Translations under genes and position numbers: made by a program
Notes under the pieces: model-generated
Database searches by the model: none
The model's input: only the letters and a program-made list of their open reading frames with translations
What the model was told of the DNA's origin: nothing
Shown here: positions 6,697 through 22,642 of the stretch, one piece after another
How positions within the stretch are numbered: the first letter of the stretch is position 1
Layout of the letters: every line of letters begins with the position of its first letter
Source: Leisingera sp. ANG-M1
GTDB taxonomy: Bacteria; Pseudomonadota; Alphaproteobacteria; Rhodobacterales; Rhodobacteraceae
DNA: 64,000 bases
Direction: 5' to 3'
NCBI RefSeq assembly: GCF_000813745.1
Contig: NZ_JWLC01000012.1
Location: 1-64,000 of the forward strand

Positions 6697-7251
6697 TTTT
6701 TTGCCCTCCTGTTGGCAGTGTTCCCGGGCATTTTTTGCCTCTTGGGAATATTATTTTACCTTATTATTGGGTCTCAGCGGGCAGACCTGTCAATCTTCAT
6801 GTGAAAATTTGTTCACCAGCAGGGAACTTCATGCCGCTTTTGGCGCCCCCTTCCTGCCGCTTTCCAGACCAGTTAAGTCCCGGGCGCCCAAAGACTTAGC
6901 GCTAACTGGCCCTGACCGGTTCCGGGCGGCGGCACCCCATTGCTGCGACCGCCAAACCCATGCCCCAACTGCGCATTTGCGACGGAATCACGCGAATCTC
7001 CGGCACTGCGCCCGCATGATTCTCCCCCGGAACGGGTTGGCCAGCGCTTACTGCAACCGTAAGCCTGATGTCGAAAAAGACCATTTCAGGCCAATTCATG
7101 CCGCAAACCCATTCGAAACCGGCATTTTCGGCAAAATCTTTTTCCTGTTAGGAATAATCATTGACATTGAACCCCCTCCCTTGGCTAACTGGACCAGACC
7201 AATGGAACCAAATCAAGAATTTTGGTCCGCACCAATAGGGAGAAACGAACA
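6697..7251. other. Divergent promoter region between amt and dmmD
   Basis: 555 bp without a convincing gene. It is AT-richer than its surroundings near 6730-6770 and 7130-7170. A possible -35 TTGACA lies at 7161-7166, just ahead of the paired operators at 7189-7235 that lead into dmmD. The amt ribosome site is at its left end. No riboswitch-like fold was recognised. Confidence 0.5.
7189..7235 (+). promoter_or_regulatory. Paired operator-like palindromes upstream of dmmD
   Basis: Site 1 (7189-7202) reads CTGGACCAGACCAA and site 2 (7222-7235) reads TTGGTCCGCACCAA. Site 1 reverse-complemented gives TTGGTCTGGTCCAG, so both fit TTGGTCYGNWCCAA. Centres are 33 bp apart. Nearly the same arrangement occurs upstream of tmm. 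TGGT-N4-ACCA resembles the operators of FadR-type GntR proteins, and such a regulator is encoded at 18004-18729. Confidence 0.7.
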
Positions 7252-8397
7252 ATGGCCATCATCTGGCGGACTTCAGCACTGGCCCAGCGCCACAAGGAAA
7301 TCGGCGGCGAGCTGGAAGATTGGAACGGCATGGGAACCGCCTGGTTCTATGACCACAGCCCCGAGCGCGCCAAAGCCGACTATGAGGCGATCCGCACCAA
7401 GGCCGGCCTGATGGATGTGTCCGGCCTGAAGAAAGTCCACGTGGTGGGCGAGCACGCCGCGCAGGTCATCGACCGGGTCACCACCCGCAACGTCGAAAAG
7501 ATCATGCCGGGCCGCTCCACCTATGCCTCGATCCTGAATGACCAGGGCAAATTCGTGGACGACTGCATCATCTACCGCCTGTCGGTGAACAGCTGGCTGG
7601 TGGTGCATGGCACCGGCACCGGCATGGAGCAGCTGAACACGGTCGCGGCCGGCAAGAACTGCTCGGTGATCTTCGACGACAACATGCACGACATGTCGCT
7701 GCAGGGCCCGGTTGCCGTGGACTTCCTGGCCGAATACGTGCCCGGCATCCGCGATCTGGCCTATTTCGGCATCATCCAGACCAAGCTGTTCGGCTGCCCG
7801 GTGATGATCTCACGCACCGGCTACACCGGCGAGCGCGGCTATGAGATCTTCTGCCAGGCCAAAGACGCGGTTCACCTGTGGGACAGCATCCTGGACAAGG
7901 GCAAGGGCATGGGCATCGTGCCGGTGCAGTTCTCCACCCTCGACCTGCTGCGCACCGAAAGCTACCTGCTGTTCTATCCGGGCGACAACTCGGAAACCTA
8001 CCCGTTCGACAACGAGACCTGCGGCGACACCCTGTGGGAGCTGGGCCTCGAGTTTACCGTCTCTCCGGGCAAGACCGGCTTCATCGGCGCCGAGAACCAC
8101 TATGCCGCCGAAGGCAAAGAGCGGTTCAAGATCTACGGCGTCCAGCTGGAGGGCACCACCCCGGCGGATGAAGGCGCAGACCTGCTGCAGAACGGCGAAA
8201 AGGTCGGCGTGGTCACTTACGGCATGTACTCCGACGTGAACAAACACAACGTGGGCATCGCGCGGATGCCGGTGGCTTGCGCCAAGCCGGGCACCGAGCT
8301 GACTGTCCGCAACGGCGACGGCACCGAGATTGCCGCCACCGCCGCCGAGATGCCCTTCTACGACAAGGACAAATCGATCCGCACCGCAAAGGGCTGA
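7252..8397 (+). CDS. dmmD: Dimethylamine monooxygenase THF-binding subunit (GcvT-like)
   Basis: 381 residues with the aminomethyltransferase (GcvT/DmdA) fold. Residues 40-240 form the folate-binding part ([18 protein letters not shown] near 50, [14 protein letters not shown] near 190) and the last 90 residues the C-terminal barrel. In dimethylamine monooxygenase this subunit is thought to trap the formaldehyde released by oxidative demethylation as methylene-THF. The ATG at 7252 follows GGGAGAAACGAACA; the in-frame GTG at 7222 lies inside the operator and was rejected. It is first in dmmDABC. Letter assignment follows my memory of the published dmmDABC order and should be checked. Confidence 0.85.
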
Positions 8398-8407
8398 TCC
8401 GGATCCC

Positions 8408-8432
8408 GGGCGTCTCCATCCCGGAGGCGCCC
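8408..8432 (+). other. Intercistronic hairpin between dmmD and dmmA
   Basis: GGGCGTCTCC-N5-GGAGGCGCCC, a 10-bp stem with one G-U pair, followed by GCTTTCG rather than a true T-tract. It may set relative expression of dmmD and dmmABC or act as a weak terminator. Confidence 0.45.
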
Positions 8433-8469
8433 GCTTTCGTTCACCCGGACTGCAGGAAAAGCGACCCAC

Positions 8470-9081
8470 ATGTCTAAGACCGTATTCCCCCCTTCGATCA
8501 AAAGCCGCCCCGTCTACGGCGAGCTTGAAGCCCGCGCCGGCAGCGGCCACCTGATGATTGCCGACGCCGAGGGCGCTGAGGCGATCCTCGATCTGGCCAA
8601 ATCCGCCGACGCGGCGTTCTGGGCCAAGGCCCATATCATCTACATCCCCAAGGGCACCGGCACCAAATACAGCAGCCAGCTGGAAGAGCTGGGTGCTGGC
8701 CAGTACTACGCAGGCCCCTCCTACGAGGCCGCGCAAAGCCGCATCCGCCGCGCTCTGCTGGACTGCCACATGGGTACCCAGGTATACCTCACCGGCACCG
8801 AAAGCCTGATGGGCCAGGCCATGGCCGAGGCCACCGCCGCCGGCATTCCGCATACCGCGATCCAGACCGAGCACCGCGGCTCCACCGCGCGGCGCATGCA
8901 ATGCGTGCACTGCAAGGGCATCACCGAGGACGTCACCACCGACCCGTTCGAATGCAGCCACTGCGGCCTCAGCCTGTTCGTGCGCGATCACTATTCGCGC
9001 CGTCTCGCCGCCTTCCAGGGCGTGCGGGTGGATGCCGAAGATCCGGGCAACATCCCCGAAAAAGTGGAGCTGTTCAAATGA
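8470..9081 (+). CDS. dmmA: Dimethylamine monooxygenase subunit DmmA-like protein
   Basis: 203 residues. The N-terminal 130 residues form an alpha/beta domain without an obvious catalytic motif. The C-terminus holds a four-Cys zinc-ribbon or iron-binding motif, C145-x2-C148 and C162-x2-C165, then a basic stretch RDHYSRRL. This pattern fits the DmmA-like family. The gene overlaps the next by ATGA, so translation is coupled to the reductase subunit. The role within the complex is probably structural or in electron transfer to the haem subunit; the sequence does not settle it. Confidence 0.82.
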   Translation: MSKTVFPPSIKSRPVYGELEARAGSGHLMIADAEGAEAILDLAKSADAAFWAKAHIIYIPKGTGTKYSSQLEELGAGQYYAGPSYEAAQSRIRRALLDCHMGTQVYLTGTESLMGQAMAEATAAGIPHTAIQTEHRGSTARRMQCVHCKGITEDVTTDPFECSHCGLSLFVRDHYSRRLAAFQGVRVDAEDPGNIPEKVELFK

Positions 9082-10043
9082 GTGCTGGCACCGCAAAACT
9101 GAATGTCACCGTGGCCGAGGTCAAACCGATCAACGACCTCGTCACCCGTTTCAAATTCGTCCGCACCGGCGGCGGCGACCTGCCCACCTTCTCGGGCGGC
9201 GCCCATACCGTGGTGGAAATGCAGGACGGCGATATCACCCGGCTCAATGCCTATTCGCTGATGTCCGACCCGGCCGACCGCGGCGCCTACATGATCTCGG
9301 TGCGCCGCGATGACGAAGGCCGCGGCGGCTCCAAATTCATGCATTCCCAGGTGAAAGAGGGCATGGAGATGGTGATCTCCAACCCGGTCAACCTGTTCTC
9401 GCTGGATCTGCGCGCCAAAAAGCACCTGATGCTGGCCGGCGGCATCGGCATTACGCCGTTCATTGCCCAGATGCATCAGCTGTCTATGATGGGCGGCCAG
9501 TTTGAGCTGCATTACTCGGTACGCACTGCCTCGCTAGGCACCTATGCCGAAGAGTTGTCAGCGCAGTACCCGGGCAAGGTGCATATCTATCACGACGACC
9601 AGGACGAAGCGATTGACCTCAATACCCTGCTCGCTACTCAGCCGCTTGGTACTCATGTCTATGTCTGCGGCCCCAAGGGCATGATCAACTGGGTGCACGG
9701 CACCTCCGAGGACATGGGCTGGCCGCGCGAGGCTGTGCATTCCGAGGAATTCCTGGCGCCTGCATCGGGCAAGCCGTTTGAGGTGAAATGCGCCGTGTCC
9801 AACAAAGTGGTCCAGGTCGGCGAGCACCAGTCTCTGCTGGAAGCACTGGAAGCGGCGGGCATCGACGCCCCCTATCTCTGCCGCGGCGGCGCCTGCGGTC
9901 AGTGCGAGACCAATGTCATCGGCTATGACGGCAAGTTCCTGCACTACGACCACTGGCTGACCGACGAGCAGAAGGCAGGCGGCAAGCACATCATGCCCTG
10001 CGTCTCGCGCTTTGAAGGCAAAACCCTGGTCCTGGACCGCTGA
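9078..10043 (+). CDS. dmmB: Dimethylamine monooxygenase reductase subunit (ferredoxin reductase type)
   Basis: 321 residues, phthalate dioxygenase reductase/VanB class. An N-terminal flavin-binding barrel contains the RLNAYSLMSDP stretch (about residue 55; the usual RxYS pattern); the nucleotide-binding domain has LAGGIGITPFIAQ (about 118) and YVCGPKGMI (about 195). The C-terminal plant-type [2Fe-2S] domain has C-RGGA-C-GQ-C near residue 270 and a last Cys in MPCVSR. It passes electrons from NAD(P)H via FMN and the iron-sulfur cluster to the haem subunit. It overlaps dmmA by four bases and is followed by dmmC after 11 bp. Confidence 0.88.
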   Translation: MSAGTAKLNVTVAEVKPINDLVTRFKFVRTGGGDLPTFSGGAHTVVEMQDGDITRLNAYSLMSDPADRGAYMISVRRDDEGRGGSKFMHSQVKEGMEMVISNPVNLFSLDLRAKKHLMLAGGIGITPFIAQMHQLSMMGGQFELHYSVRTASLGTYAEELSAQYPGKVHIYHDDQDEAIDLNTLLATQPLGTHVYVCGPKGMINWVHGTSEDMGWPREAVHSEEFLAPASGKPFEVKCAVSNKVVQVGEHQSLLEALEAAGIDAPYLCRGGACGQCETNVIGYDGKFLHYDHWLTDEQKAGGKHIMPCVSRFEGKTLVLDR

Positions 10044-10054
10044 GGGAGACAGAT

Positions 10055-11098
10055 ATGACCATCCAATTCAACGACGAAACCTTCCACGGCGACTTCACCT
10101 TCAAGAACTCGGACTGGGCGATCAAACGCTTCCCCTTCCCGTTCCACGAAGACAGCTACATGTATTCCGTGAACATGGAGCCGCATAAGTCCTACCGCCC
10201 CGGCTCGGTGTTCGAAAAAACCTTCGACGTGGACGAGCATTATGTGGCGGAAATGAAGGACCGCGCCCGCGTCCTGGCCGACGACCCGCTGCGCTGCCAG
10301 TCGCTGCCGCATATGACGCTGGCAGGCTGGGACCTGGTCGAGCTGATCATGGAAGCCAAAGCGGCCGAATACCCGGATCTGTTTGAACTGCATAAAGACG
10401 GCAACCGCTGGCGCTGGATCAACAAGCCGCTCGGCATCGACGACACCTTCACTTTCCTCGATGAAAGCACCCTGCCTTACGGGCCGATGGAATACATCAC
10501 CCGCCAGACTCAGGGCGACTTTGCGGTGCTCGACCAGCGCGACGACAACCTGTGGATGGATGCCGGCATGGTCACCACCCAGGCCGACTGGTCTCTGGAC
10601 TTCGACATCGGCATGAACTTCTTCGAATGGCACGCGCCGGTGCCGAAGGCGCACGAGATGGGCATCTTCGTCCGCGCGCTGAAGTTCCTCTTGAACATCC
10701 AGCAGGGCCAGCCCGCCCGCCGCCTGAACTGGACCATGACGGTCAATCCTCTGCTCGACACCTCCCCGGAGAACTACCACAAATGGGGCACCATGAAGCA
10801 GGGGCTCACGATGGAGAACATCGGCGAGAAGCAGCACCTGCGGGTCGAACTGCAGACCTTCTTCCGGCTGCCGCGCTCCAACGCACTGGTGTTCCCGATC
10901 CGCTGCTACCTGATCCGGTTTGAAGATCTGGTGACAGTGCCGAAATGGGGCCGCCGCCTGCACCGGGTGATCCGCGATCTGCCCGAGGAGCTGGCCACCT
11001 ACAAGGGCTTCATCGATAACCGCCCGCTGATGGTGGAATGGCTGTCGCAGTACGACGACGGCAGCCCGACCTCGGACGGTATCTGGCCCGACGATTGA
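10055..11098 (+). CDS. dmmC: Dimethylamine monooxygenase haem subunit (DUF3445, oxidative N-demethylase)
   Basis: 347 residues matching the DUF3445 / haem-dependent oxidative N-demethylase family, a PAS-related fold that binds haem and oxidises secondary amines. Tell-tale stretches are FPFHEDSYMYSVNMEPHKSY near the N-terminus, VLDQRDDNLWMDAG near 155, and LPRSNALVFPIRCYLI near 270. It is the catalytic subunit converting dimethylamine and O2 to methylamine and formaldehyde. It is last in the operon. A loose stem (GGCGGGCC/GGCCCGCC, 21-base loop) follows at about 11112 but has no T-tract. Confidence 0.87.
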   Translation: MTIQFNDETFHGDFTFKNSDWAIKRFPFPFHEDSYMYSVNMEPHKSYRPGSVFEKTFDVDEHYVAEMKDRARVLADDPLRCQSLPHMTLAGWDLVELIMEAKAAEYPDLFELHKDGNRWRWINKPLGIDDTFTFLDESTLPYGPMEYITRQTQGDFAVLDQRDDNLWMDAGMVTTQADWSLDFDIGMNFFEWHAPVPKAHEMGIFVRALKFLLNIQQGQPARRLNWTMTVNPLLDTSPENYHKWGTMKQGLTMENIGEKQHLRVELQTFFRLPRSNALVFPIRCYLIRFEDLVTVPKWGRRLHRVIRDLPEELATYKGFIDNRPLMVEWLSQYDDGSPTSDGIWPDD

Positions 11099-11207
11099 TC
11101 CCGAGCGGACCTGGCGGGCCGTCCCTACCCCCTGTCACTTAGGCCCGCCTCACTGACTGCCGTTGCTTTGCGCTCCGGCAGTTTCTTTTTTACCTATAGG
11201 GGGGGTG

Positions 11208-11394
11208 CTCCCGCCCCTGCATCAGACGGCTGGCTTCGCCTGCCCCCTGTGCAGCGTTGGGCCGGGCAGCGCGCTTCGCGCGCTGCGGGCGGCAGATAGC
11301 AAGCTTAAGGCAATACGCAACCGCGCCGCGCATCGCGCGGCGCTACGCCCAACTGCGCAAGGACATCTTCAGATGTTCCTGAAGCAGGCGGGAG
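11208..11394. repeat. Structured intergenic repeat, copy 1
   Basis: Bounded by CTCCCGC (11208) and GCGGGAG (ending 11394). Inside are a GC hairpin (GCGCGC-TTCG-GCGCGC around 11272), the core GCGCCGCGCATCGCGCGGCGC followed by TACGCCCAAC, and a small hairpin ACATCT-TC-AGATGT near 11363. Four further copies share the frame. It fills the 311-bp gap between dmmC and the XRE regulator gene. Confidence 0.65.
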
Positions 11395-11409
11395 CACACC
11401 CGCCGCAGG

Positions 11410-12066
11410 TCAGCTCGACTGCGGATAGGAAATGATCGACAGGTAGCGGGCCGGCAGTTTCACCAGCCCTTCCGGCCCATGCGGCGCGTCGGCATCGAAG
11501 AACAGCGTATCCCCGGCCTTCAGGGAAAACACCTTGTCGCCATGCCGGTAGTCCACTTCGCCCTCCAGCATGTAAAGCATCTCGATGCCGTCGTGCTGGA
11601 AGGTCGGGAACACATCCGACTCTTCGGTGAGGGTGATCATGTAGGGTTCAACCACCACACCGGATGCATTTGCCCCCAAGTGACCTAAAAGCTGGTATTG
11701 GTGCCCAGCCCTTGTGCCCGCACGCTCAGTCTCCATCCCCTCGCCCGATCTGGTATGAACCGCCTCCCGGGTTTCTTCAAAGCGGCGGAAGAACGACGTG
11801 ATCGGCACGCTCAAAGCATTGGCCAGCAGCTGCAGCGTGGTCAGCGACGGCGAGGTATTGCCATTCTCGATCTTCGACAGCATCCCGATCGACAAGCCCG
11901 TCAGATTGGCCAGATCCGCCACCGTGATCCCCTGCTGGCGCCGGAACGAGCGGACCTCGCGGCCGATCGCTACTTCCAGGACTTTTTCCGCGCCATCGCG
12001 GACTCGATGCGGATCTTGGGAAAGGTTGTTGGCCACTGCGTCGGTATCGTCTTTGGGTTTTGCCAC
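11410..12066 (-). CDS. XRE-cupin transcriptional regulator
   Basis: 218 residues. A helix-turn-helix of the XRE class (about residues 45-95: GITVADLANLTGLSIGMLSKIENG) is followed by a small cupin domain (about 145-215: HDGIEMLYMLEGEVDYRHGD). Such proteins sense small molecules in the cupin and regulate amino acid, polyamine or sulfur use. A GTG start at 12064-12066 is chosen because AAGGAAG lies at proper distance; an upstream in-frame start exists at 12147. It is adjacent to but convergent with dmmC. Its target is unknown; the ABC transporter operon behind it is a candidate. Confidence 0.85.
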   Translation of the reverse strand: MAKPKDDTDAVANNLSQDPHRVRDGAEKVLEVAIGREVRSFRRQQGITVADLANLTGLSIGMLSKIENGNTSPSLTTLQLLANALSVPITSFFRRFEETREAVHTRSGEGMETERAGTRAGHQYQLLGHLGANASGVVVEPYMITLTEESDVFPTFQHDGIEMLYMLEGEVDYRHGDKVFSLKAGDTLFFDADAPHGPEGLVKLPARYLSIISYPQSS

Positions 12067-12242
12067 TGTGTTATCTTCCTTCTGGACGGCCTCTGACAAG
12101 CGCGCAGCGGGGATTACGCAAAAACTTTTACGGACACAAGAAACCACGCGAAAATTATTTTACTGCCATTACCAGTTTTTCCCAAGCCCTCACCGTCACA
12201 GGAAAGAAATTTGTTGCCCCGCCGCTCCAGCCCGGAACATCG

Positions 12243-12266
12243 AAACCCGGGGCCAAGGGCCCCGGG
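12243..12266 (-). terminator. Probable terminator of the ABC transporter operon
   Basis: On the minus strand CCCGGGGCC-CTT-GGCCCCGGG, a perfect 9-bp stem, followed by TTTCG. The T-tract is short, but it lies 30 bp after the last gene of the operon. Confidence 0.6.
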
Positions 12267-12296
12267 CTTGCTCCAGCTGCCGCAAAACGCAGCGTC

Positions 12297-12905
12297 TCAG
12301 TCATCCAGCAGCAGCAGACAGGCCCCGAGCACCTTGCGGGTGCCATCAAACACCACCGGCTTCTCACCGCGCCACCGGCTGGCATGACGGTGGTCCACGG
12401 GCCAGCCGGACGTCAGGCTGCGCAGGGTCTCTTCCGTTTCAGAAGCAATCGCACCGATCCTGATTTTGAGATTGCCGTGGTAGGTCTCCCGGTGCAGCGC
12501 CTCCATACGCAAATGAAACAGCGACGAGCGGCTGCGCGGAGCGATAAACATCTCCGCCACTTGCTCCGAGGCCCCGCTCCAAACCCGCAACGCGCGGGCT
12601 TGCAGCTTCTCAGCCTCCTCCAGCGCCCCCGACCGGAACGCCAGCACCGCCAGATTGGCGGGGGCTGCGGCCTGCCGCAAGTCTGCGCCAGGAAAGGCAA
12701 TCCGCGCCAGCAGACCAGCCAGCCGGAACAGGCGCATCGCCTTGCGCACATGCCCCGCCGCAGCCTCTGCCAGCGCCCGCTCCATCAGCCGCTCCCAGAT
12801 CAGGTCGGCGCGGGACCAGCCAGCCGCGCGCGCCACCCGCATTTCCGCGTCCTGCTTAAAGCCCCAGATACGCGGCGCGGACGTGTTCGTTTCCGTGAAG
12901 CTCAT
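12297..12905 (-). CDS. Helical protein of unknown function closing the ABC operon
   Basis: 202 residues, mostly alpha-helical, Ala/Arg/Leu-rich; no family recognised. The middle (ALAEAAAGHVRKAMRLFRLAG, then APANLAVLAFRSGALEEAEK) has the spacing of TPR-like helix pairs. The start ATG at 12903-12905 has GGAGGG upstream and overlaps the end of the ATPase gene by 50 bp; a longer reading would overlap by 200 bp and was rejected. There is no signal peptide, so it is probably cytoplasmic. Its stable place at the end of the transporter operon suggests a linked role, but none can be named. Confidence 0.72.
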   Translation of the reverse strand: MSFTETNTSAPRIWGFKQDAEMRVARAAGWSRADLIWERLMERALAEAAAGHVRKAMRLFRLAGLLARIAFPGADLRQAAAPANLAVLAFRSGALEEAEKLQARALRVWSGASEQVAEMFIAPRSRSSLFHLRMEALHRETYHGNLKIRIGAIASETEETLRSLTSGWPVDHRHASRWRGEKPVVFDGTRKVLGACLLLLDD

Positions 12906-13563
12906 CTGCAGGTCCCTCCATTGCTGCATTTCCGGTTTCCAGGACATAGGCGTAGTCAGCCAGTTCCAGCGCCAGCTCCGCATTCTGCTCGACCAAGACG
13001 ACCGACAGACCGTTGGCGTTGATCTCCTCAACGATCTGAGCAATTTCCTCGACAATCACCGGCGCCAGCCCCATCGACGGCTCGTCCATCAAGAGCAGCC
13101 GCGGCTTGGACATCAGCGCGCGGCCGATGGCCAGCATCTGCTGTTCGCCGCCCGACATCGTCTTGGCCATCTGGGTGCGCCGTTCGCGCAGCCGCGGGAA
13201 ACGTTTGAAGACATCTTCCAGATCCGCCTCAATCGCTTCCTTGTCCTTGCGCAGGAATGCCCCGGTGCGCAGGTTCTCCTCCACCGTCATGTCGGGGAAA
13301 ATCCGCCGCCCCTCCGGCACATGGGCGATACCGTTGGCCACCACCTTATGCGCGGGCAGATGGTCGATCCGCTTGCCCTCAAAGGTGATCTCGCCCGCGG
13401 TGATCGGCAGCATCCCCGACATCGCCCGCAGGGTGGTGGTCTTGCCTGCCCCGTTGCCACCGATGATGGTGACGATCTTTCCCTCCGGCACCGCCACCGA
13501 GATGTTCCGGATGGCGTTGATCTTGCCGTAGTTGACGGCGATGTTCTTCATCTCAAGCAACAT
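12856..13563 (-). CDS. ABC transporter ATPase, LivF class
   Basis: 235 residues. Walker A GGNGAGKTT near residue 35, signature MSGGEQQMLAIGRALM near 135, Walker B PRLLLMDEP near 155, then the D-loop and switch His region. With the next gene upstream it forms the ATPase pair of a branched-chain amino acid/amide-type (HAAT) importer. Start codon overlaps the end of the LivG-like gene by 11 bp. The substrate is unknown; position between dmm and tmm suggests a methylated amine or amide. Confidence 0.9.
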   Translation of the reverse strand: MLLEMKNIAVNYGKINAIRNISVAVPEGKIVTIIGGNGAGKTTTLRAMSGMLPITAGEITFEGKRIDHLPAHKVVANGIAHVPEGRRIFPDMTVEENLRTGAFLRKDKEAIEADLEDVFKRFPRLRERRTQMAKTMSGGEQQMLAIGRALMSKPRLLLMDEPSMGLAPVIVEEIAQIVEEINANGLSVVLVEQNAELALELADYAYVLETGNAAMEGPADELHGNEHVRAAYLGL

Positions 13564-14320
13564 GGCGCGCGCCTCCCAGATAGGCCTCGATCACCGCCGG
13601 ATGGTTGCGGATCTCCTGCGGGCCGCCCTCGGCCAGGAACTTGCCAAAGCTCATGCAGGTGATGTTGTCGCACAGCCCCATGATCGCCTGCATGTCATGC
13701 TCAACGATCAGGATGGTGATCCCGTCGGCCTTAAGCCGTTTCATCAGATCCATCATCTGCCGGGTTTCTTCCGGGTTCATGCCGGTGAAGGGCTCATCCA
13801 GCAGGATCACATCCGGGTGGCTGGCATAGGCCACCGCCATGCCCAGCGCCCGCTGATGCCCGTGGCTCAGGTCGCCCGCCCGCTCCTGCATCACGTGATC
13901 CAGGCCAAAGAACTCCAGCGCCTCCTTGGCCCGCGCCTCGGCGCCGCTGCGGTCTTCCTTGTCCCAGCCGATGATCGCGGCAAAGATATTGGGGCGGAAC
14001 GGCATATGGGTGCCGACCAGCGCATTCTCCAGCACCGTCAGCTCGGCAAACAAAGTCGAATGCTGGAACGTCCGCACCACCCCGCGCCGGGCCACCTCAT
14101 GCATCTGCAGGCCGGAGATATCCTCCCCCCGCAAGAGCACCTGCCCCGATGTCGGCTTGTAAAACCCCGAAATCATATTGAACGTCGTGGTCTTGCCCGC
14201 CCCGTTCGGGCCGATCAGACCGTGGATCGAGCCATGCGCCACCTTGAACGACAGGCTGTCCACCGCAATCAGGCCGCCAAACCGCATGGTCAGGTCTTTG
14301 ACTTCAAGAAAATCGGTCAT
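13553..14320 (-). CDS. ABC transporter ATPase, LivG class
   Basis: 255 residues. Walker A GPNGAGKTT near residue 37, signature LSHGHQRALGMAVAYAS near 152, Walker B VILLDEPFTGMNPEE near 170, and the C-terminal extra segment FGKFLAEGGPQEI typical of the BCA subfamily. The signature LSHGHQ is a common variant of LSGGQ in this class. It overlaps the permease gene by ATGA and the second ATPase gene by 11 bp, showing a tight operon. Confidence 0.9.
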   Translation of the reverse strand: MTDFLEVKDLTMRFGGLIAVDSLSFKVAHGSIHGLIGPNGAGKTTTFNMISGFYKPTSGQVLLRGEDISGLQMHEVARRGVVRTFQHSTLFAELTVLENALVGTHMPFRPNIFAAIIGWDKEDRSGAEARAKEALEFFGLDHVMQERAGDLSHGHQRALGMAVAYASHPDVILLDEPFTGMNPEETRQMMDLMKRLKADGITILIVEHDMQAIMGLCDNITCMSFGKFLAEGGPQEIRNHPAVIEAYLGGARHVA

Positions 14321-15297
14321 TCTGCCGGGCTCCGTTCCGGCGCGCCGCCAGCAGCGCGTCTTTTGGTGAGTTTCTGCACGATGCTTTCCAGGCCGTTGGG
14401 CAGGAACAGGATCGACAGGATCATGATGGCGCCGTAGATCAGCGGCCGCATCTGTTCGAGCCCCAGCTCGCGCAGAACAACTTCGTTGATGACGGTCAGC
14501 ACCACACAGCCCAGGATCGGCCCATAGAAAGTCGCGGTGCCGCCAACAATCGCCCAGGTCAGCACAAAGACCATCAGGTCGATGTCAAAGGCATTGGGGT
14601 TGATGGTGCCCACGTAATGCGCCAGCAGCGCGCCGGAGATGCCGGCAAAGCCCGAGGCAATGGCAAAGGCCAGCGTCCGGTAGGCCCGCACATTCACGCC
14701 CGAGGCCTGCGCCAGCTTGTCCTGCCAATGCACCGCATGGAAGGTGAGGCCAACCGGCGACTTCTCAATCCGCCACAGGATCCACAGGCAGACCGCCACA
14801 ACAACGCCTGCAAAGTAGTAGTAGGACGTCGGCTCGAAGAAATCGAACTGGTAGAAGCCAACCGAGAAATCCGGCATCGGGTCGATCCCCTTGATCCCCT
14901 TGGCGCCGCCAAATGGATCACGGAACCGTTTCCACAGCAGGCGGATGATCTCACCGGCCGCAAACGAGCCTATCAGGAAATAAAACCCTTTCATCCGGAA
15001 CAGCGGGAAAGACAAAAGCACCGCAATCAGTGCCGCAATGACCCCGCCCAGCAGCATCGACACCGGCACATAGACGCCCAGCTTCTTGGTCAGCAGCGCC
15101 GAGCTATAGGCCCCCACCCCCATGATCACCACGTGCCCCAGCGACCATTCGCCGGTCAGGGTCAGCAGCCGGTAGCTCGCCACCAGCAGCACATTGATGG
15201 TCAGGAACACCAGGATTTCCTGCTGCGAGAAGCTGAGCCCATGCGGCAGGGCGATCAGCGCGGCCAGCGCCGCAATCCATATCAGGAACTTAGGCAC
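14317..15297 (-). CDS. ABC transporter permease, LivM class
   Basis: 326 residues with about nine to ten hydrophobic segments and the permease loop around GEWSLGHVVIMGVGAYSSAL (about 55-75), typical of LivM. The GTG at 15295-15297 (VPKFLIW) is chosen, with GGGAG eight bases before it; a TTG 15 bp upstream is possible. It overlaps the LivH-like gene by 8 bp. The C-terminus ends in a charged tail. Confidence 0.88.
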   Translation of the reverse strand: MPKFLIWIAALAALIALPHGLSFSQQEILVFLTINVLLVASYRLLTLTGEWSLGHVVIMGVGAYSSALLTKKLGVYVPVSMLLGGVIAALIAVLLSFPLFRMKGFYFLIGSFAAGEIIRLLWKRFRDPFGGAKGIKGIDPMPDFSVGFYQFDFFEPTSYYYFAGVVVAVCLWILWRIEKSPVGLTFHAVHWQDKLAQASGVNVRAYRTLAFAIASGFAGISGALLAHYVGTINPNAFDIDLMVFVLTWAIVGGTATFYGPILGCVVLTVINEVVLRELGLEQMRPLIYGAIMILSILFLPNGLESIVQKLTKRRAAGGAPERSPAE

Positions 15298-16159
15298 GGT
15301 CCGCACTCCCAAACAGGCCAGTGGGCTTCACGATCAGCACCAGCAGCATCAGCGACAGCCCGACGATGTCGGCCAGCACGCCGTCCCAGAAAGTGGTCAC
15401 GAATGTATGCACCAGCGCATAGGCAACCGAGGCAACGATGGCACCCTCCAGCGAGCCGACCCCGCCGACAATGATGACGATGAATGCCGTGACGATCACC
15501 GAATGCCCCATATGCGGGTTGACCGAGACCAGCGGCGCCGTCAGCGCACCGGCAATCCCCGCCAGGCCTGCACCGATGAACATGGCAATCCTGGCGGTCT
15601 GGGTGATCGAGATGCCCTGCAGCGCCGCGGCTTCAGGATCCTGGGCAGACGCCCGCAGCGCCCAGCCGAATTTTGTCCGTTTCAGGAAGTACCAAAGCGC
15701 CGACAGCAGCACGATGGCGGCGATGATCACATACAAACGCGCCACCGGCAGCCGCACTTTCTCGGAGAACGCAATCACCTCCTGCGTGACCGGCGGGATA
15801 TGCACCATCCGCACGCCAAATCCCATCACCGCCAGCGCCTGCAGAATCATTAGGAACCCGATCGAGGCCACCAGCCCGCCCAAGGGGTTGTCCTTCAACG
15901 GCCGGAACAGTGCCTTCTCCATCAGCAGGCCCAGGCAGCCCACAAACAGAAGCCCCGCCGCCACGGCCAGAAAAAACGGCACATTCAGCCCGGCATATAG
16001 CGCCACAATGGCATAGGCGCCCGCCATGAACAGTTCGCCATGGGCAAAGTTGATCACCCCCATGACACCAAAGATGAGCACAAGCCCCACAGCAACAAGG
16101 GAAATATAGCTCGCAGCATACACGGCGTTGAGGCCGGTCTGCGCCAAAAGGTCCAGCAT
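15290..16159 (-). CDS. ABC transporter permease, LivH class
   Basis: 289 residues, about eight membrane segments. GVINFAHGELFMAGAYAI near residues 35-50 is the LivH signature and GGVGSLEGAIVASVAYAL near 230 is the second conserved loop. It pairs with LivM to form the membrane channel. A strong hairpin sits between it and the upstream binding-protein gene. Confidence 0.9.
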   Translation of the reverse strand: MLDLLAQTGLNAVYAASYISLVAVGLVLIFGVMGVINFAHGELFMAGAYAIVALYAGLNVPFFLAVAAGLLFVGCLGLLMEKALFRPLKDNPLGGLVASIGFLMILQALAVMGFGVRMVHIPPVTQEVIAFSEKVRLPVARLYVIIAAIVLLSALWYFLKRTKFGWALRASAQDPEAAALQGISITQTARIAMFIGAGLAGIAGALTAPLVSVNPHMGHSVIVTAFIVIIVGGVGSLEGAIVASVAYALVHTFVTTFWDGVLADIVGLSLMLLVLIVKPTGLFGSADRA

Positions 16160-16187
16160 TGGATTGTCTCTTTTTTCAGTCGGTCCC

Positions 16188-16214
16188 GCGGTGCGGGGAC
16201 TTGTCCCGCACCGC
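16188..16214 (-). other. Intercistronic hairpin behind the binding-protein gene
   Basis: GCGGTGCGGG / CCCGCACCGC, a perfect 10-bp stem with a 7-base loop, in the 75-bp gap between the binding-protein gene and the permease gene. There is no T-tract after it on the minus strand. Such hairpins commonly protect binding-protein mRNA so that more of it is made than of the membrane parts. Confidence 0.6.
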
Positions 16215-16234
16215 CTGATTGCCTGCCTGAAAGG

Positions 16235-17524
16235 TCAGCTGCGCTGATCCCACATCTGGTCATAAGCTTTCATATGCTTGACCAGCAGATCGCCATGTTT
16301 GGCGTACCAGTCCGGGATTGAGCGGAACTCCTTGATCGTGGCCTTGCCGCCCTCGATCGCCACCACCGGCCAGTCGCCGACCAGCGCATTGTCGATGCCA
16401 AAGAGCTCGGTGCCCCACCAGTCGGCATCGCCAAAGGCATGTTTGCCCTTGCCCTGCTTCATCGCCGAGGCCACCGCATCCGGGCTGGCCGACCCGGCCT
16501 TCTCAGCCGCCGCCTTCCACAGATCCATGATCGAGGCATATTCCCAGCTCACCGCGCCCCACTGGCCCGGATGCCGCTTGTTGAACTCGGCAAAAAAGCC
16601 GTTCGGGTCGGTGAAGTTGATGTTGTCGCCATTCAGCGCCGGATCATCAAAATCCGGGAACTGGAAGACGAACCCTTCCATGAACTCTTCCGAGGTCTTG
16701 GCGATCATCTGATCATAGAAATCCGCGGTGCAGGAGATGATCTGCCCCTTGAACCCCTGCTGGAACAGCTGCTCAGCAATCGGGTGCACATAGTCGGAAT
16801 AGCAGGTGTCGAGGCAGACGATATCCGGGTTCTTGCTGATCAGGCGGGTCACAACCGGGGCAAAATCGGTGGTCGCCGGGTCAAACAGCAGCGGATCGTC
16901 CAGCATCTCAATGCCCGCCGCCTCAAACGCGGCCAGGTAGGTCGCCACCGAGGGCAGCCCCAAAGCATCGTCCTGCGCGCACATCACCGCGGTTTTCAGC
17001 TCCGGCTTGTTCTCGGCCAGCCACTCCACGCCGGTGACGTTGTAGATCGGATGCACCTCGGCCGGCGCAATCAGCGTGTTGGTATCGGGCGACAGGTCCG
17101 ACGGCAGCAGGGTCGAGAACAGCATGCCGGTCTTGTCCGCCACCGGCTGCACGCCGGGCCAAGTGTCGCCGCCCAGCATCATGATGAAACTCACACCGTC
17201 CTCGCGGATCAGCTTGGTGGCGCCGGTGCGCGCCTTGGCCGGGTCGTATTCGTTGTCATAGGCCACGAACTCGACATTGTGGCTGCCATCGCCCAGCTTG
17301 ATGCCGCCCGCGGCATTCACCCGCTCGGCCCAGATCTCGCAGCCGTCCAGCCCGGGCTTGCCCCAGGCCGCCACCGCGCCGGTCAAAGGCGCCAGAAAGC
17401 CGATCTTGATGGTGCTGCCCGCTGCCAGCGACGCGCCCGGCAGCCCGGCGCTCATTGCGGCAGCTGCTGTCGAATGAAGGAACGTCCGCCGGGTCAGCCC
17501 CGATTTCACGATCTTGGAAATCAT
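16235..17524 (-). CDS. ABC transporter substrate-binding protein (amide/urea-like), Tat signal
   Basis: 429 residues. The N-terminus has a twin-arginine leader, LTRRTFLHSTAAAAM, ending near AxA at LAAG (about residue 35), so export is probably by Tat. The mature part (KIGFLAPLTGAVAAWGKPG) is a two-lobe periplasmic binding protein of the branched-chain amino acid/urea-amide class. The ribosome site GGGAGAAGAAG directly precedes the ATG. It is first in the operon and feeds the LivH/M/G/F-type genes. A close paralogue without a leader is at 18736-20037. The ligand cannot be read from the sequence. Confidence 0.88.
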   Translation of the reverse strand: MISKIVKSGLTRRTFLHSTAAAAMSAGLPGASLAAGSTIKIGFLAPLTGAVAAWGKPGLDGCEIWAERVNAAGGIKLGDGSHNVEFVAYDNEYDPAKARTGATKLIREDGVSFIMMLGGDTWPGVQPVADKTGMLFSTLLPSDLSPDTNTLIAPAEVHPIYNVTGVEWLAENKPELKTAVMCAQDDALGLPSVATYLAAFEAAGIEMLDDPLLFDPATTDFAPVVTRLISKNPDIVCLDTCYSDYVHPIAEQLFQQGFKGQIISCTADFYDQMIAKTSEEFMEGFVFQFPDFDDPALNGDNINFTDPNGFFAEFNKRHPGQWGAVSWEYASIMDLWKAAAEKAGSASPDAVASAMKQGKGKHAFGDADWWGTELFGIDNALVGDWPVVAIEGGKATIKEFRSIPDWYAKHGDLLVKHMKAYDQMWDQRS

Positions 17525-18003
17525 CTTCTTCTCCCATGTTGGACCCGCCTGTTTGTTTTTGCGGCGGTGTGTTCTGCGGAATGAGGCCCACTTGCGGGAC
17601 CCGCGGGTTCAGCCCAACGTCACTGAACCAGTTAATCCAAATTGGACCCATCCTGGCTCAAGGCTGGCAGCCACATGGTTCACCGTCAAGAAATTTTCTT
17701 TCACTTTCGGGACCGAAAAGGCACCAAAACCAGACCAAAGGCACAGAAATGCGGCAAATGAAGTCTTAAAAACGGCATTAAAACATGCCTTTACCCCTCA
17801 CCTTAACAAGGCAAGCAGAAAACCAATTTTTGAACCAATTTCCGCATCTTTCTTGCCGTCCGGTGCGGAAACCGGTAGGCTGAAAGCCAATCACAGCTGC
17901 GTCAGATGGTTGCAAAAAGGCCTCTAAAGCCGGTATTGGCACCTCTGTTGCAGTGACCAGGAGCAGGGGATTCTCCCGCTCAGCCGGCCGGGAAAACCAG
18001 ATT
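17525..18003. promoter_or_regulatory. Divergent control region between transporter operon and GntR gene
   Basis: 479 bp without a gene. At 17725-17738 the sequence CAAAACCAGACCAA matches 11 of 14 bases of the dmmD operator site 1. A perfect inverted repeat TTTCGG-GA-CCGAAA lies at 17705-17718. Around 17622-17647 are degenerate half-sites (CTGAACCA, CCAAATTGG). GGCAT-N6-ATGCC occurs near 17773. These suggest control of the ABC operon by the same regulator as dmm and tmm, more weakly supported than at those promoters. Confidence 0.45.
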
Positions 18004-18729
18004 ATGAGCTCAGCGGAAGAAACCACGTCGCAGATCCTGACCACCCATTCGGTGGGCGCCACCGTGCAGGTGGTGATCGACACTTTGTTTGCCCGCATCA
18101 AATCCGGCACCTATCCGGTCGACACCCGGCTGCCATCGGAACGCACCCTGGCCTCGGAACTGGGTGTTGCCCGCAATACCGTACGCGAAGCATTGGATGT
18201 GCTGGCTGCGCAAAACGTGATCCACCGCCGTCCGGGCTCCGGCAGTTTTGTCAAATTCCGCTCCGATCCCAAGCCCGAGGCCACGTACTCCTCGCTTGCC
18301 AAAGAAGTCTCGCCGCTGGACCACCTGGTGGTACGCGGCATCCTGGAGCCGGAGCTGATCCGCCTGGCCGTGATCAACATGACCCCGCGCCAGATCGAGG
18401 AACTGGACGAGATCCTCTCCCGCATCGAGGCCGTGCGCACCGACACGGATGCGTTCATCGAGGCGGAGGAAGACCTCTACCGCAAGATCGCCGAGGGCTC
18501 CGGCAACCCGCTACTGCATTCCTGCTACGAGCTGACGATCGAGGCCTGCCGTCTTTCCTACCGCACCGCCCTGCGCCGCCGCCACCTGACGCCGCAGCGG
18601 ATGCAGGACTACCAGAAGCGTTACAACACGCTGTTCAACGCCATCGCCTCGCGGGATGTGGAATCCGCGGTGGAGTTCATCAAGCTGCACCTGATCGACG
18701 AACAGAAACTGCTGCTGCAGGAAGTCTGA
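18004..18729 (+). CDS. FadR-type GntR transcriptional regulator
   Basis: 241 residues. A winged helix (about residues 20-90: GTYPVDTRLPSERTLASELG, then NTVREALDVLAAQNVIHRRPGSGSFV) is followed by an all-helical FCD ligand domain (about 105-235) with acidic and His residues that could hold a metal or carboxylate. Start ATG 18004 (MSSAEETTS) is preferred; an in-frame GTG at 17953 is possible. It lies between the ABC operon (divergent) and the leaderless binding protein (convergent). FadR-class operators look like TGGT-N4-ACCA, which is what the tmm and dmmD promoters carry. Confidence 0.88.
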   Translation: MSSAEETTSQILTTHSVGATVQVVIDTLFARIKSGTYPVDTRLPSERTLASELGVARNTVREALDVLAAQNVIHRRPGSGSFVKFRSDPKPEATYSSLAKEVSPLDHLVVRGILEPELIRLAVINMTPRQIEELDEILSRIEAVRTDTDAFIEAEEDLYRKIAEGSGNPLLHSCYELTIEACRLSYRTALRRRHLTPQRMQDYQKRYNTLFNAIASRDVESAVEFIKLHLIDEQKLLLQEV

Positions 18730-18735
18730 ACCGGT

Positions 18736-20037
18736 TTATCCCAGAACCGCCCGCGCACTGGCTTCATTGCCAGGCGCCGCGCTTTCCAGCCGCTGATGCC
18801 ACAGCTGCCCCAGCGCCGCCATTTCCGCCTTCAGCAGGTTGGAATGCTGCGCCAGCCAGCCCGGAATCGACCCGAACCCGGCAATCCGCGCCCTGCCCTC
18901 CTGGATAGTAACCACCGGCCAATCCCCAACCAAAGCGTTGGAAATCCCAAAGATTTCCTCGCCCCACCATTCCGCATGGCCAAAGGCGTGGGTGACATGC
19001 CCCAGCTGTTTCATCGCCGCCAGCACGGACGGGGACTCGACCGAGCCCGCCTTCTCCACTGCGCTGTGCCAGATGTCGAGGATCGCCACATATTCCCAGC
19101 TCACCGCCGACCAGGTGCCCGGGAAACGGCGGTTGTATTCCTCATAAAACGTGTGCGGCTGGTTGAAGAAAAATGCCTTCTCCCGCAGCAGCGGATCGTC
19201 GAAGTCCGGGAACTGAAACAGCACCCCTTCCATGAACTCTTCCGAGGTCCGCTCCACCAGCTTGCCGTAGCCATCCATGGTGCAGCTGATGATCTGACCC
19301 TTGAACCCCTTGGCATAGGCGTATTCGGTCATCGCATGCACCATCGGGGTATACGACGAGCACCAGCACAGGATATCGGCGCCGCTTTCCAGCATCGGAT
19401 CGACCACTGGCCCCGGGTCCATTGAGCGCGCATCATACTGCACTTCCCGCAGGATCTTCTTGCCCGCTGCCTTGAAGGCCGCACGGTAGACCGCCTGCGT
19501 CGGCAGTCCCAGCAGATCCATCTGGCTGCACAAGGCCACTGTCTTCAGCTCCGGCCGGTTCTCGGCCAGCCAGGTGACGCCGGTCACATTCTGGATCGGA
19601 TGCGCTTCGCTCGGCGCAATCAGATAAGGCGTATCCGGCGACAGATCGGTTGGAAGCAGGGTCGAGGTCAGCACCTTGTTGCGCATCAAGAGATCCTGCA
19701 CCGGCGCAAAGGTGTCGCCGCCCAGCATCAGCATCAGCTTGACGTTGTGTTTTTGGACCAGTTCCACCGCGCCTTCCAGGGCGCGGTCCGGGTTGTAGCC
19801 GCAGTCGTAGGAATGGATCCGAATCGGATAGCGGCGGCCGCCAACCAGCACCCCGCCGGCCTTGTTCAGCCCGTCTTCCCAGATCCGGCAGCCGTTCAAT
19901 CCGGGCAGCCCCCAGCTCTCCACACGGCCCGAAAGCGGGCCTAGAAAGCCGATATTCACTGATTCTGTCATCCCCACCGACAGCCGCGGCAGCGCCGCGC
20001 GGGCCGTCAGCTGATGTGCAAAACTGGTCGTCTTCAT
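18736..20037 (-). CDS. Leaderless substrate-binding-protein-like sensor (AmiC/UrtA-like fold)
   Basis: 433 residues closely resembling the neighbouring binding protein: shared stretches include [43 protein letters not shown] and [10 protein letters not shown]. The N-terminus [22 protein letters not shown] has no hydrophobic core, twin-Arg motif or lipobox, and another ATG (MTESVNIGF, about 19971) sits right at the start of the mature-like fold. It is thus probably cytoplasmic, like AmiC, which senses amides. The reading frame runs on upstream through the antisense of tmm; the ATG at 20037 has AGGA at proper distance. It is divergent from tmm. Confidence 0.82.
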
Positions 20038-20141
20038 GCTTTGAATCCTAACAATAATTTTGCGCGCTTCCAGTCCAATTGCGAAGAATCTTATTCCTCC
20101 AGTGAAAATTGGTTGACTTACCGGCCCAAATTTGGACCTAT

Positions 20142-20187
20142 TTGGATCAGACCAAATGAACCAAATAAAGACATTGGTCTGAACCAA
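20142..20187 (+). promoter_or_regulatory. Paired operator-like palindromes upstream of tmm
   Basis: Site 1 (20142-20155) TTGGATCAGACCAA and site 2 (20174-20187) TTGGTCTGAACCAA; site 1 reverse-complemented is TTGGTCTGATCCAA. Centres are 32 bp apart, about three turns of DNA. A half-site GAACCAAAT lies between them as at dmmD. A possible -35 TTGACT is at 20113-20118. The 162-bp gap also holds the start of the divergent sensor gene, which may be controlled too. Confidence 0.72.
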
Positions 20188-20199
20188 TGGGAGAGCCAC

Positions 20200-21546
20200 A
20201 TGACCAAGAAACGCATTGCCATCATCGGCGCAGGCCCGTCCGGCCTGGCGCAGTTGCGGGCATTCCAGTCCGCAGCCAACAAGGGGGAAGAGATCCCCGA
20301 AATCGTCTGCTTCGAAAAGCAGGACAACTGGGGCGGCCTGTGGAATTACACCTGGCGCACCGGCCTGGATGAAAACGGTGAGCCGGTGCACTGCTCGATG
20401 TACCGCTACCTGTGGTCCAACGGCCCCAAGGAGGGCCTGGAGTTTGCCGACTATTCCTTTGAGGAGCATTTCGGCAAGCAGATCGCATCCTACCCGCCGC
20501 GCGCCGTGCTGTTCGACTATATTGAAGGCCGGGTGAAAAAAGCCGATGTGCGCAAGTGGATCCGCTTCAACTCGCCGATCCGCTGGGTGGAATACAACGA
20601 GGACAAGGGCAATTTCACCGTCACCGTCCACGACCACGCCAAGGACAGCACCTACAAAGAAGATTTCGACCACGTGATCTGCGCCTCGGGCCACTTCTCG
20701 ACCCCGAACGTGCCGTTCTACCCGGGTTTTGACACCTTCAACGGCCGCGTCCTGCACGCCCATGACTTCCGCGACGCCCGCGAATTCGCAGGCAAGGACA
20801 TCCTGATCCTCGGCGCCTCCTATTCGGCCGAAGACATCGGTTCCCAGTGCTGGAAATACGGCGCCAAGTCGATCACCACCTCCTACCGGACCGAGCCGAT
20901 GGGCTTCAAATGGCCGGACAACTGGGACGAGGTTCCGGCGCTGGAATCGGTCAGCGGCAACACCGCCACCTTCGTTGACGGCACCCAGAAAGAGGTTGAC
21001 GCGATCATCCTCTGCACCGGCTACAAGCACTACTTCAACTTCCTGCCGGATGATCTGCGCCTGAAGACCGCCAACCGCCTGGCCGCTGCCGACCTCTACA
21101 AAGGCGTGGTCTATGCCCATAACCCCAAGATGTTCTACCTGGGCATGCAGGACCAGTGGTTCACCTTCAACATGTTCGACGCGCAGGCCTGGTGGGTCCG
21201 CGACGCGATCATGGGCAAGATCGAGATCCCGGCGGACAAGGAAACCCTGCTGGCCGACGTGAAAGAGCGCGAAGAGCGCGAAGAAGCCTCGCCGGACGTC
21301 AAATACGCGATCAAATATCAGGGCGACTACGTGCTGGAGCTGATCGAAGAGACCGACTACCCCACCTTCGACGTGGCTGGCGCCTGCCAGGCTTTCTACG
21401 AGTGGAAGGGGCACAAGGCGGAGGACATCATGGCTTTCCGCAACAACTCCTACAAATCGGTCATCACCGGCACCATGGCGCCCGTGCACCACACCCCGTG
21501 GAAAGACGCCTTGGACGACACGCTGGAAGTATATCTGCAAAACTAA
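20200..21546 (+). CDS. tmm: Trimethylamine monooxygenase
   Basis: 448 residues, bacterial flavin-containing monooxygenase. Tmm oxidises trimethylamine to its N-oxide with NADPH and O2. Seen: FAD motif GAGPSGL near residue 10, the FMO fingerprint [11 protein letters not shown] near 180, the NADPH motif [10 protein letters not shown] near 204, and CTGYKHYF near 310. Length is that of known Tmm. Start ATG 20200 ([10 protein letters not shown]) follows GGGAGAGCCAC; the frame is open further upstream but crosses the operators. The same enzyme type also oxidises dimethyl sulfide and other amines. Confidence 0.93.
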
Positions 21547-21637: not shown

Positions 21638-22642
21638 ATGCAGCGCGGCAAAAACATGACTCTCGGATTTTTGATTTTCCCCGGCTTTCCAATGGCCTGC
21701 CTGACCTCGGCCATCGAACCCCTGCGCGCGGCAAACGAAATTGCCGGCACTGATACTTTCCGATGGAAACTTGTGTCCGAGACCGGCGCCAGCGTGAATG
21801 CCTCTGCCAACGTCGCCTTCCAGCCCGACTGCTCGCTGGATCAGGCCGATGAAATCGACACCTTGTTCCTGCTCTCCAGCCCGCAAGGCAAGTTCGAAGA
21901 CCCCAAGAGCTCGAATGGCAAGCTGCGCCATTTGGCCCGCCACGGCACCAAGATGGGCGCGGTTTCAGGCGGCGTTTTCCCGCTGGCACGCTCCGGCCTC
22001 TTGGACGGGCACAGCTGCTCGGTCCATTGGTGCTACAAGGCTGCCTTCACCGCAGAGTTCCCTTCGCTTGCCACCACCGACGACGTGATCGTGCTTGACC
22101 GCCGCCGATTTACGGCCAGCGGCGCTGCGGCGATGTTCGACCTGTCACTCAAGCTGATTGAACAGGCCCTGGGCGATGCAGTGATGACTGAGGTCGCCTG
22201 CTGGTTCCAGCACCCGATGGTCCGCGCCGAGGGTGTGCGCCAGAAGATCCCCGCCTTCAAAACCGACAGCACCGCTGACAGCCTGCCGCCGCCGGTGGCC
22301 AAGGCGGTCGAGCTCTTTGCCGATAACCTGGAACACCCGGTCTCGATCCGCGATGCCGCCAGCCAGATCGGTGTCTCGCCGCGCCAGCTGGAGCGCAGCT
22401 TCAAATCCTCCACCGGCCAGAGCCCGGCAATTTACTACCGCACCCTGCGGATGAATGCCGCCCGGCAGCTGGTGATGTATTCCCGCGACTCGATCACCTC
22501 GATCGCCAATGCGGTGGGCTACGCCACCTCCTCGACCCTGTCGCAGCACTACCGCGAAAGCTTCGGCGTCACCCCGCAGGAGGAACGCCGCAAGGTGAAC
22601 CTGTTCCGGGTCCAGGACAACCGTCCGATCCCCTCCGCCTGA
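21638..22642 (+). CDS. GlxA-family AraC transcriptional regulator
   Basis: 334 residues. An N-terminal DJ-1/glutamine amidotransferase-like domain (GFLIFPGFPMACLTSAIEPLR at its start, about 6-170) joins a C-terminal AraC helix-turn-helix (about 225-320: SIRDAASQIGVSPRQLERSFK, then ITSIANAVGYATSSTLSQHYR). Relatives include GbdR, CdhR and SouR, which respond to betaine, carnitine or sarcosine in pseudomonads. A start at 21656 (MTLGF) is equally possible. Place between tmm and the mgd/sox genes suggests control of methylated-amine breakdown. That link is inference. Confidence 0.85.
   Translation: MQRGKNMTLGFLIFPGFPMACLTSAIEPLRAANEIAGTDTFRWKLVSETGASVNASANVAFQPDCSLDQADEIDTLFLLSSPQGKFEDPKSSNGKLRHLARHGTKMGAVSGGVFPLARSGLLDGHSCSVHWCYKAAFTAEFPSLATTDDVIVLDRRRFTASGAAAMFDLSLKLIEQALGDAVMTEVACWFQHPMVRAEGVRQKIPAFKTDSTADSLPPPVAKAVELFADNLEHPVSIRDAASQIGVSPRQLERSFKSSTGQSPAIYYRTLRMNAARQLVMYSRDSITSIANAVGYATSSTLSQHYRESFGVTPQEERRKVNLFRVQDNRPIPSA

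Follow-up and report, generated by a model that had tools for sequence, protein, structure and literature searches.

Predicted TmoR operators upstream of tmm and dmmDABC in Leisingera sp. ANG-M1 and a possible duplication of the tmm promoter

Introduction

In Ruegeria pomeroyi DSS-3, TmoR binds the promoter of tmm, the gene for trimethylamine monooxygenase, represses tmm and responds mainly to dimethylamine (DMA) and more weakly to trimethylamine N-oxide (TMAO), and is reported not to affect tdm, dmm or downstream genes (PMC13390433). The same report presents TmaR as an AraC-type master activator of methylated-amine catabolism, which activates tdm and dmm, mildly represses tmm and binds the tmm, dmm and other promoters (PMC13390433). 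Here we describe 64,000 nucleotides of Leisingera sp. ANG-M1 (contig NZ_JWLC01000012.1, positions 1 to 64,000; this whole stretch is called the window), in which the promoters of tmm and of dmmD, the first gene of dmmDABC, carry paired palindromes, with a GntR-type regulator encoded between them. This locus and the DSS-3 system (PMC13390433) share the regulator family, the tmm-SBP-tmoR gene order (SBP, substrate-binding protein) and an operator upstream of tmm; unlike R. pomeroyi, in which TmoR is reported to act on tmm and not on dmm, Leisingera has the same operator before its dmm operon. We propose, with a probability of roughly 0.78, that the two blocks are compound TmoR operators that would repress both tmm and dmmDABC, the tmm operator being widespread and the dmm operator a lineage-specific addition.

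An earlier note, made on this DNA from its letters alone, had called the system undescribed. The link between TmoR and tmm is known, since repression of tmm by TmoR is published for R. pomeroyi (PMC13390433); the open-access full-text literature yielded no TmoR operator sequence, no 4-nucleotide (nt) spacing and no control of dmm by TmoR, so that within the literature searched both the operator and control of dmm appear to be new. Described sites of the FadR subfamily of GntR regulators are TKGT/ACMA boxes with typically 3 nt from GT to AC and 2 nt in several groups, 4 nt being given for the HutC subfamily (PMC4494728).

Results

Upstream of dmmD lie the predicted operators O1 (7189-7202, minus strand; CTGGACCAGACCAA on the plus strand) and O2 (7222-7235, plus strand; TTGGTCCGCACCAA), which match the 14-bp sequence TTGGTCYGNWCCAA with one and no mismatches, respectively. 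Upstream of tmm, O1 (20142-20155, minus strand; TTGGATCAGACCAA on the plus strand) and O2 (20174-20187, plus strand; TTGGTCTGAACCAA) both match it exactly. The centres of the paired sites are 33 bp apart at dmmD and 32 bp at tmm, and inside each pair an extra plus-strand half-site, GAACCAAAT, adjoins O1 (7205-7213 at dmmD, 20158-20166 at tmm), so that the architecture given in the earlier note, two inverted copies per promoter at 32-33 bp with a half-site between, is what the mismatch scan and direct reading return. Allowing up to three mismatches, TTGGTCYGNWCCAA has 67 matches in the whole window against 38.5 expected and a maximum of 53 in 100 shuffles. The likeness of the two upstream blocks, which that note had also remarked on, is confirmed by an alignment score of 31 between the 100-bp stretches before dmmD and tmm, where 2000 dinucleotide-preserving shuffles reached at most 16. 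A matrix whose training set held only tmm promoters from beyond loci L001-L010 (64 loci among L011-L080, reduced to 48 by dereplication) also found all four sites and placed them at ranks 1-4 in the 64-kb window (21.6, 17.7, 16.2 and 14.6), the fifth-ranked match (11.8, at 41314) falling within long open frames. A search of the strain's own genome (5.37 Mb in 91 contigs) that allowed three mismatches finds TGGWYCNGACCAANNGAACCAAA only at the dmmD and tmm places, and the reversed control pattern has one match. Of the other single palindromes listed for this genome, at least five places overlap or adjoin long open frames, and further members with one site may exist. Chance is a very poor account of the paired sites before dmmD (7189-7235) and tmm (20142-20187), which we regard as real.

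Putative promoter elements were read by eye and from conservation at 7161-7190 for dmmD (TTGACA at 7161-7166, -10-like CTAACT at 7185-7190; plus strand) and at 20113-20142 for tmm (TTGACT at 20113-20118, -10-like CCTATT at 20137-20142; plus strand), and were not reported by a simple promoter scan. O1 lies at or just past the probable -10 element and O2 near the Shine-Dalgarno sequence, a placement that suits a repressor. Across 75 loci the distance from GT to AC is 4 nt in 61, 3 in 10, 2 in 3 and 6 in 1, half-sites having been scored at 1-6 nt with weights that derive from a 4-nt-seeded matrix; a single palindrome scoring at least 10 is found in 29 of these loci, and none in 3. The inverted TGGT/ACCA half-sites and the FCD-type protein are like those of FadR-subfamily operators, whereas the mostly 4-nt spacing is unlike the 3 nt (or 2 nt) given for that subfamily (PMC4494728), and so is the frequent combination of two palindromes with an extra direct half-site. 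A spacing of 3 or 2 nt is typical of FadR-subfamily sites and is not defining for the protein. The earlier note had named TGGT-N4-ACCA as the site of the FadR class, which describes most of the sites reported here and not the class, for which N3 or, in some groups, N2 is typical (PMC4494728).

The gene at about 18001-18729 (plus strand; frame open from 17953) encodes a GntR winged helix and an FCD domain (PF00392 and PF07729, both above cut-off), and an open reading frame and domain search thus bear out the FadR-type GntR gene that had been placed between the two promoters. It lies near tmm with one gene between, an order also found in R. pomeroyi (L033), and its product shares 63% identity with its counterpart in R. 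pomeroyi SZCCDBG043, which has the same tmm-SBP-tmoR arrangement. Because domain, position and identity agree, sequence comparison identifies it as the TmoR ortholog, a predicted repressor, and we call the gene tmoR.

We sampled 149 genomes of the family, 34 of them with tmm, our own genome included in both counts. TmoR (at least 57% identity) is present in at least 11 of the 149, again with our own included, and those 11 all have tmm; the first search scored the best 18 candidates per genome. Of the 33 other genomes with tmm, G102 has the gene at a contig edge without upstream sequence, leaving 32 promoters for comparison. Within 100 bp, an N3 or N4 palindrome scoring at least 10 is present in 9 of 10 promoters from TmoR-bearing genomes and 1 of 22 from TmoR-less genomes (Fisher 3.4e-6), and one scoring at least 7 in 10 of 10 and 2 of 22. 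Untrained counts of TTGGT/ACCAA give the same division, being 1-5 with TmoR and, among the 22 without, 0 in 18 and 1 in 4 (Mann-Whitney p 1e-6), and the groups are less sharply divided by the full 14-bp matrix, which exceeds 8 over 150 bp in 9/10 promoters with TmoR versus 3/22 without (Mann-Whitney p 4e-5). All six TmoR-bearing family genomes outside the training set score at least 10, and when every candidate in the 22 TmoR-less genomes was scored, none exceeded 36% identity to TmoR. A distant GntR relative (29-36%) does lie within about 10 kb of tmm in seven of these 22 (G001, G004, G037, G072, G079, G090 and G101), and may be a divergent TmoR counterpart with another operator.

Among 80 named tmm loci, 74 have TmoR, which is encoded within the tmm locus in 64 and elsewhere in the genome in 10 (16 genomes were checked whole). 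The tmm promoter scores at least 10 in 71 of these 74, which are partly training loci, and at least 7 in all of them, and the operator is kept in the ten with TmoR elsewhere. Five loci without TmoR lack the operator, with scores below 1. In L047 and L053, the tmm promoter can still be aligned with those of TmoR-bearing relatives, the half-sites are gone, and only TmoR relatives of 33-35% were found in the genomes, although TmaR and an XRE-type regulator remain within 8 kb of tmm in L053; in these two drafts the repressor and its operator are both missing. Overall, the operator at tmm has a wide distribution that follows that of TmoR.

Of 20 same-genus genomes besides our own, the 19 with dmmD all carry the block before it: O1 (CTGGACCRGACCAA) is present in 19/19 promoters, and O2 is intact in 14 and broken in 5. 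Nineteen dmmD promoters outside L002-L008 were judged by eye and not set-scored. In five same-genus genomes (L145-L149), the usual Leisingera promoter precedes a dmmD that is divergent (68-69%), which suggests an exchange of the dmmD coding sequence, and the block stays before dmmD even there. Outside the sampled genus, O1 is present in the dmmD promoter of one relative, L164. No dmmD operator was found in 18 other-genus promoters of the family (best 6.7; 19 non-own genomes less G030, with dmmD at a contig edge), at least 10 of these genomes having TmoR, nor in 24 further dmmD promoters with upstream sequence (best 7.4; 27 less L190, without upstream sequence, L184, with 30 bp only, and L164, the positive). 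In R. pomeroyi SZCCDBG043, the tmm promoter carries the operator (15.9) but the dmmD promoter lacks it, which fits the finding reported for DSS-3 that dmm is unchanged by TmoR (PMC13390433). One palindrome of 10.5 lies about 171 bp from the dmmD start in SZCCDBG043, outside the promoter.

The two tdm-like loci of our own genome, on contigs other than those of tmm and dmm, have no such operator (top scores of 8.0 over 5.2 kb and 7.3 over 5.0 kb), and the tdm-like genes, which would make DMA, would therefore stay under other control. These are full-length TMAO-demethylase-like genes (L160 on C16 and L161 on C17) scoring 1239 and 1077 bits against a cut-off of 1100. The earlier note had envisaged a single regulator for trimethylamine (TMA) and DMA oxidation plus a transporter, recognizable by its motif at tmm, tdm and dmm in other roseobacters. 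Joint control of tmm and dmm is supported here by comparison, and in relatives the matrix scan finds the operator widely at tmm; as a general roseobacter regulon for TMA and DMA the proposal does not hold, since at dmmD the operator was found only in the same genus and one relative. The transporter site is unsupported: the weaker copy proposed at 17725-17738 before the ATP-binding cassette (ABC) operon differs from the motif by more than three mismatches, has a matrix score of -3.1 and was rejected. The best 14-bp score in the intergenic region around 17725 is 9.0, at 17604, and two of the 13 relatives that share this gene order have a palindrome of at least 10 somewhere in that region (L013, 12.7; L046, 14.5), so that the transporter or tmoR itself may still be controlled from there.

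Discussion

In the mechanism that we propose, in which binding, repression, effector and the direction of duplication are all inferred, a TmoR dimer would occupy TTGGT-N4-ACCAA at O1, overlapping the probable -10 and start region, helped by the adjoining half-site and by O2 deeper in the leader. TmoR on the blocks would stop transcription of tmm and dmmDABC when methylated amines are absent. If Leisingera TmoR behaves like its R. pomeroyi counterpart, DMA would release it and induce both operons, TMAO acting more weakly, so that DMA would directly induce its own consuming enzyme. This arrangement would have arisen when a tmm-type promoter was duplicated before dmmD in Leisingera and one relative, and TmaR would probably still act at the tmm and dmm promoters. 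Given the operator at dmmD in Leisingera, we predict a departure from the tmm-only TmoR regulon of the published account. The proposal supplies a concrete operator for TmoR and a species-specific prediction, namely that TmoR controls dmm in Leisingera and not in R. pomeroyi, and it may be a compact example of how copying a promoter can rewire regulation, here in a pathway relevant to marine nitrogen.

The regulator reading the blocks could instead be TmaR, which is reported to bind both the tmm and the dmm promoters in R. pomeroyi (PMC13390433), and whose probable ortholog is encoded in the window at 21638-22642. Unlike what would be expected of a TmaR site, however, the presence of TmaR does not predict these sites: among the best 14 candidates per genome, TmaR relatives were found in 6/10 TmoR-bearing and 9/22 TmoR-less tmm genomes (p 0.45), those nine score below 7, and L053 keeps TmaR and not the motif. 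The sites also lie at or beyond the probable start, a position not expected of an activator, and are missing from the tdm-like loci, although in R. pomeroyi TmaR targets the tdm counterpart, which together make TmaR an improbable reader. The XRE-cupin regulator encoded 3' of dmmC is a very improbable one. Its gene adjoins dmm here and stands beside tmm, in the usual place of tmoR, in eight loci (e.g., in Celeribacter and Shimia thalassica), and XRE was found, among the best 18 candidates per genome, in 10/10 TmoR-bearing genomes; yet it was also found (41-77% identity) in 15/22 TmoR-less genomes (p 0.07), all 15 of which score below 10, it is present without the motif in L053, L068 and L077, and seven of the eight loci with XRE beside tmm have TmoR elsewhere in the genome. 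It is equally hard to credit that the inverted pairs form a leader RNA hairpin hiding the ribosome-binding site, for although the tmm leader folds well (z -5.0, 0/200 shuffles as good), the dmmD leader folds poorly (z -1.1, 30/200 shuffles as good), many of the 75 loci have one strong palindrome or none, and each arm is itself a DNA palindrome.

If TmoR binds at both genes, the dmm site may have come from copying of the tmm promoter or from convergence. Leisingera-type dmmD and tmm promoters align almost without gaps from the TTCC element to the Shine-Dalgarno sequence. Outside the operator, the dmmD promoter of L164 matches a tmm promoter at 31/36 bases with a score of 23.5 (shuffle maximum 13.0), compared with 11.5 (12.5) for the best other dmmD promoter, and that of the window scores 18.0 against tmm promoters and 14.5 against other dmmD promoters (shuffle maxima 12.5). 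In all 14 of the 14 captured dmmD promoters tested, the upstream part scores higher against tmm than its own shuffle maximum and than the best other dmmD promoter. Since the dmmD promoter is closer to tmm promoters than to other dmmD promoters, we lean slightly towards duplication of the whole tmm promoter-operator module before dmmDABC in the Leisingera lineage, which would have put a DMA-consuming enzyme under a DMA-sensing repressor; this is the simplest reading, though unproven, and its direction would be from tmm to dmmD. Convergence, which we hold to be a tentative but appreciable possibility, is favored by the shortness of the sequences, by conserved TTCC and TTGAC elements that could be shared for other reasons, and by the way the non-operator sequence was compared: TTGAC served as an anchor for the tmm promoters alone, which biases that comparison towards duplication.

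Several points weigh against TmoR control of both operons and against the promoter duplication. In R. pomeroyi, TmoR is reported to leave dmm expression unchanged and both promoters are bound by TmaR (PMC13390433), and co-control is therefore likely. With the 14-bp matrix over 150 bp, three TmoR-less promoters exceed 8 (10.1, 13.1 and 15.5) and one TmoR-bearing promoter reaches only 6.1; one metagenome-assembled genome (L058) has the operator (18.3) with no TmoR found in the genome, and we treat it separately as an exception. The training loci L014, L016, L019 and L025 are the same as four of the ten positive genomes in the family sample (G053, G089, G078 and G134, respectively), both L047 and L053 are draft genomes, and the flank around tmm in L047 is short. 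The p-values and counts overstate independence, because the presence of TmoR and of the operator is linked by phylogeny and the 19 same-genus promoters represent one descent. For the duplication, the margin of the window's own dmmD promoter is smaller than that of L164, and the shuffles do not model shared elements, on which convergence could produce the same signal. A strict restriction of dmm control to this lineage is also weakened by L039, L054, L184 and L185, whose dmmD promoters have direct ACCAA half-sites and no palindrome, and which might have a weak parallel link to TmoR.

Genomic setting

The start codon of dmmD is at 7252, and its open reading frame (7252-8397, plus strand) encodes a GcvT-like protein (PF01571/PF08669) with 80% identity to that of R. 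pomeroyi SZCCDBG043. It is followed on the plus strand (8470-11098) by dmmA (8470-9081; PF22290/PF22289, DmmA), dmmB (ending at 10043) and dmmC (10055-11098), the last being the HODM-type gene (PF11927); the identity of dmmB and the letter order of the dmm genes are presumed from position and customary naming. The XRE-cupin gene (11410-12147, minus strand), found by domain search, is an unlikely reader of the sites. In L064, L069, L072, L073, L076, L078 and L079, tmm is flanked by an XRE-cupin gene in the position otherwise held by tmoR, which lies elsewhere in the genome.

At 20200-21546 (plus strand) lies tmm, identified by NF058570 (833 bits; cut-off, 675) and 98% identical to tmm of Leisingera sp. 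ANG-Vp. Between tmm and tmoR, and divergent from tmm, is a periplasmic binding-protein-like gene (18736-20037, minus strand; PF13458 on 18736-20010, start set by eye). The AraC/DJ-1 regulator taken as the probable TmaR ortholog (21638-22642, plus strand), also found by domain search and an unlikely reader of the sites, is 54% identical to the product of an R. pomeroyi SZCCDBG043 gene between dmm and sarcosine-oxidase-like genes and has a second match of 60% in our own genome, on C13. The window also holds the ABC-transporter operon, genes resembling gmaS-mgs and sarcosine-oxidase-like genes that are probably mgd, several of these names being our assumption from position and customary naming. 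Upstream of tmoR, a non-palindromic direct pair of half-sites, ACCAATTTTTGAACCAATTT (17822-17841, plus strand), is exact or near-exact in some close relatives (e.g., L001, L009, L010 and L013) and absent from others; with low confidence, it is a possible weak site for autoregulation of tmoR.

A second element lies upstream of TTGAC in both promoters, as the dyad TTCCTGTTAGGAA just before that of dmmD (7142-7154, plus strand) and, about 10 bp before that of tmm, as the TTTCC-N5-GGAAA-like TTCCTCCAGTGAAAA (20094-20108, plus strand). At tmm, one regular expression finds it in 6/10 TmoR-bearing and 7/22 TmoR-less family promoters (0.3% in shuffles), and a related dyad occurs in 10/18 other-genus dmmD promoters (1% in shuffles). 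The element has no tie to TmoR, and TmaR or the XRE-cupin protein are candidates for its reader.

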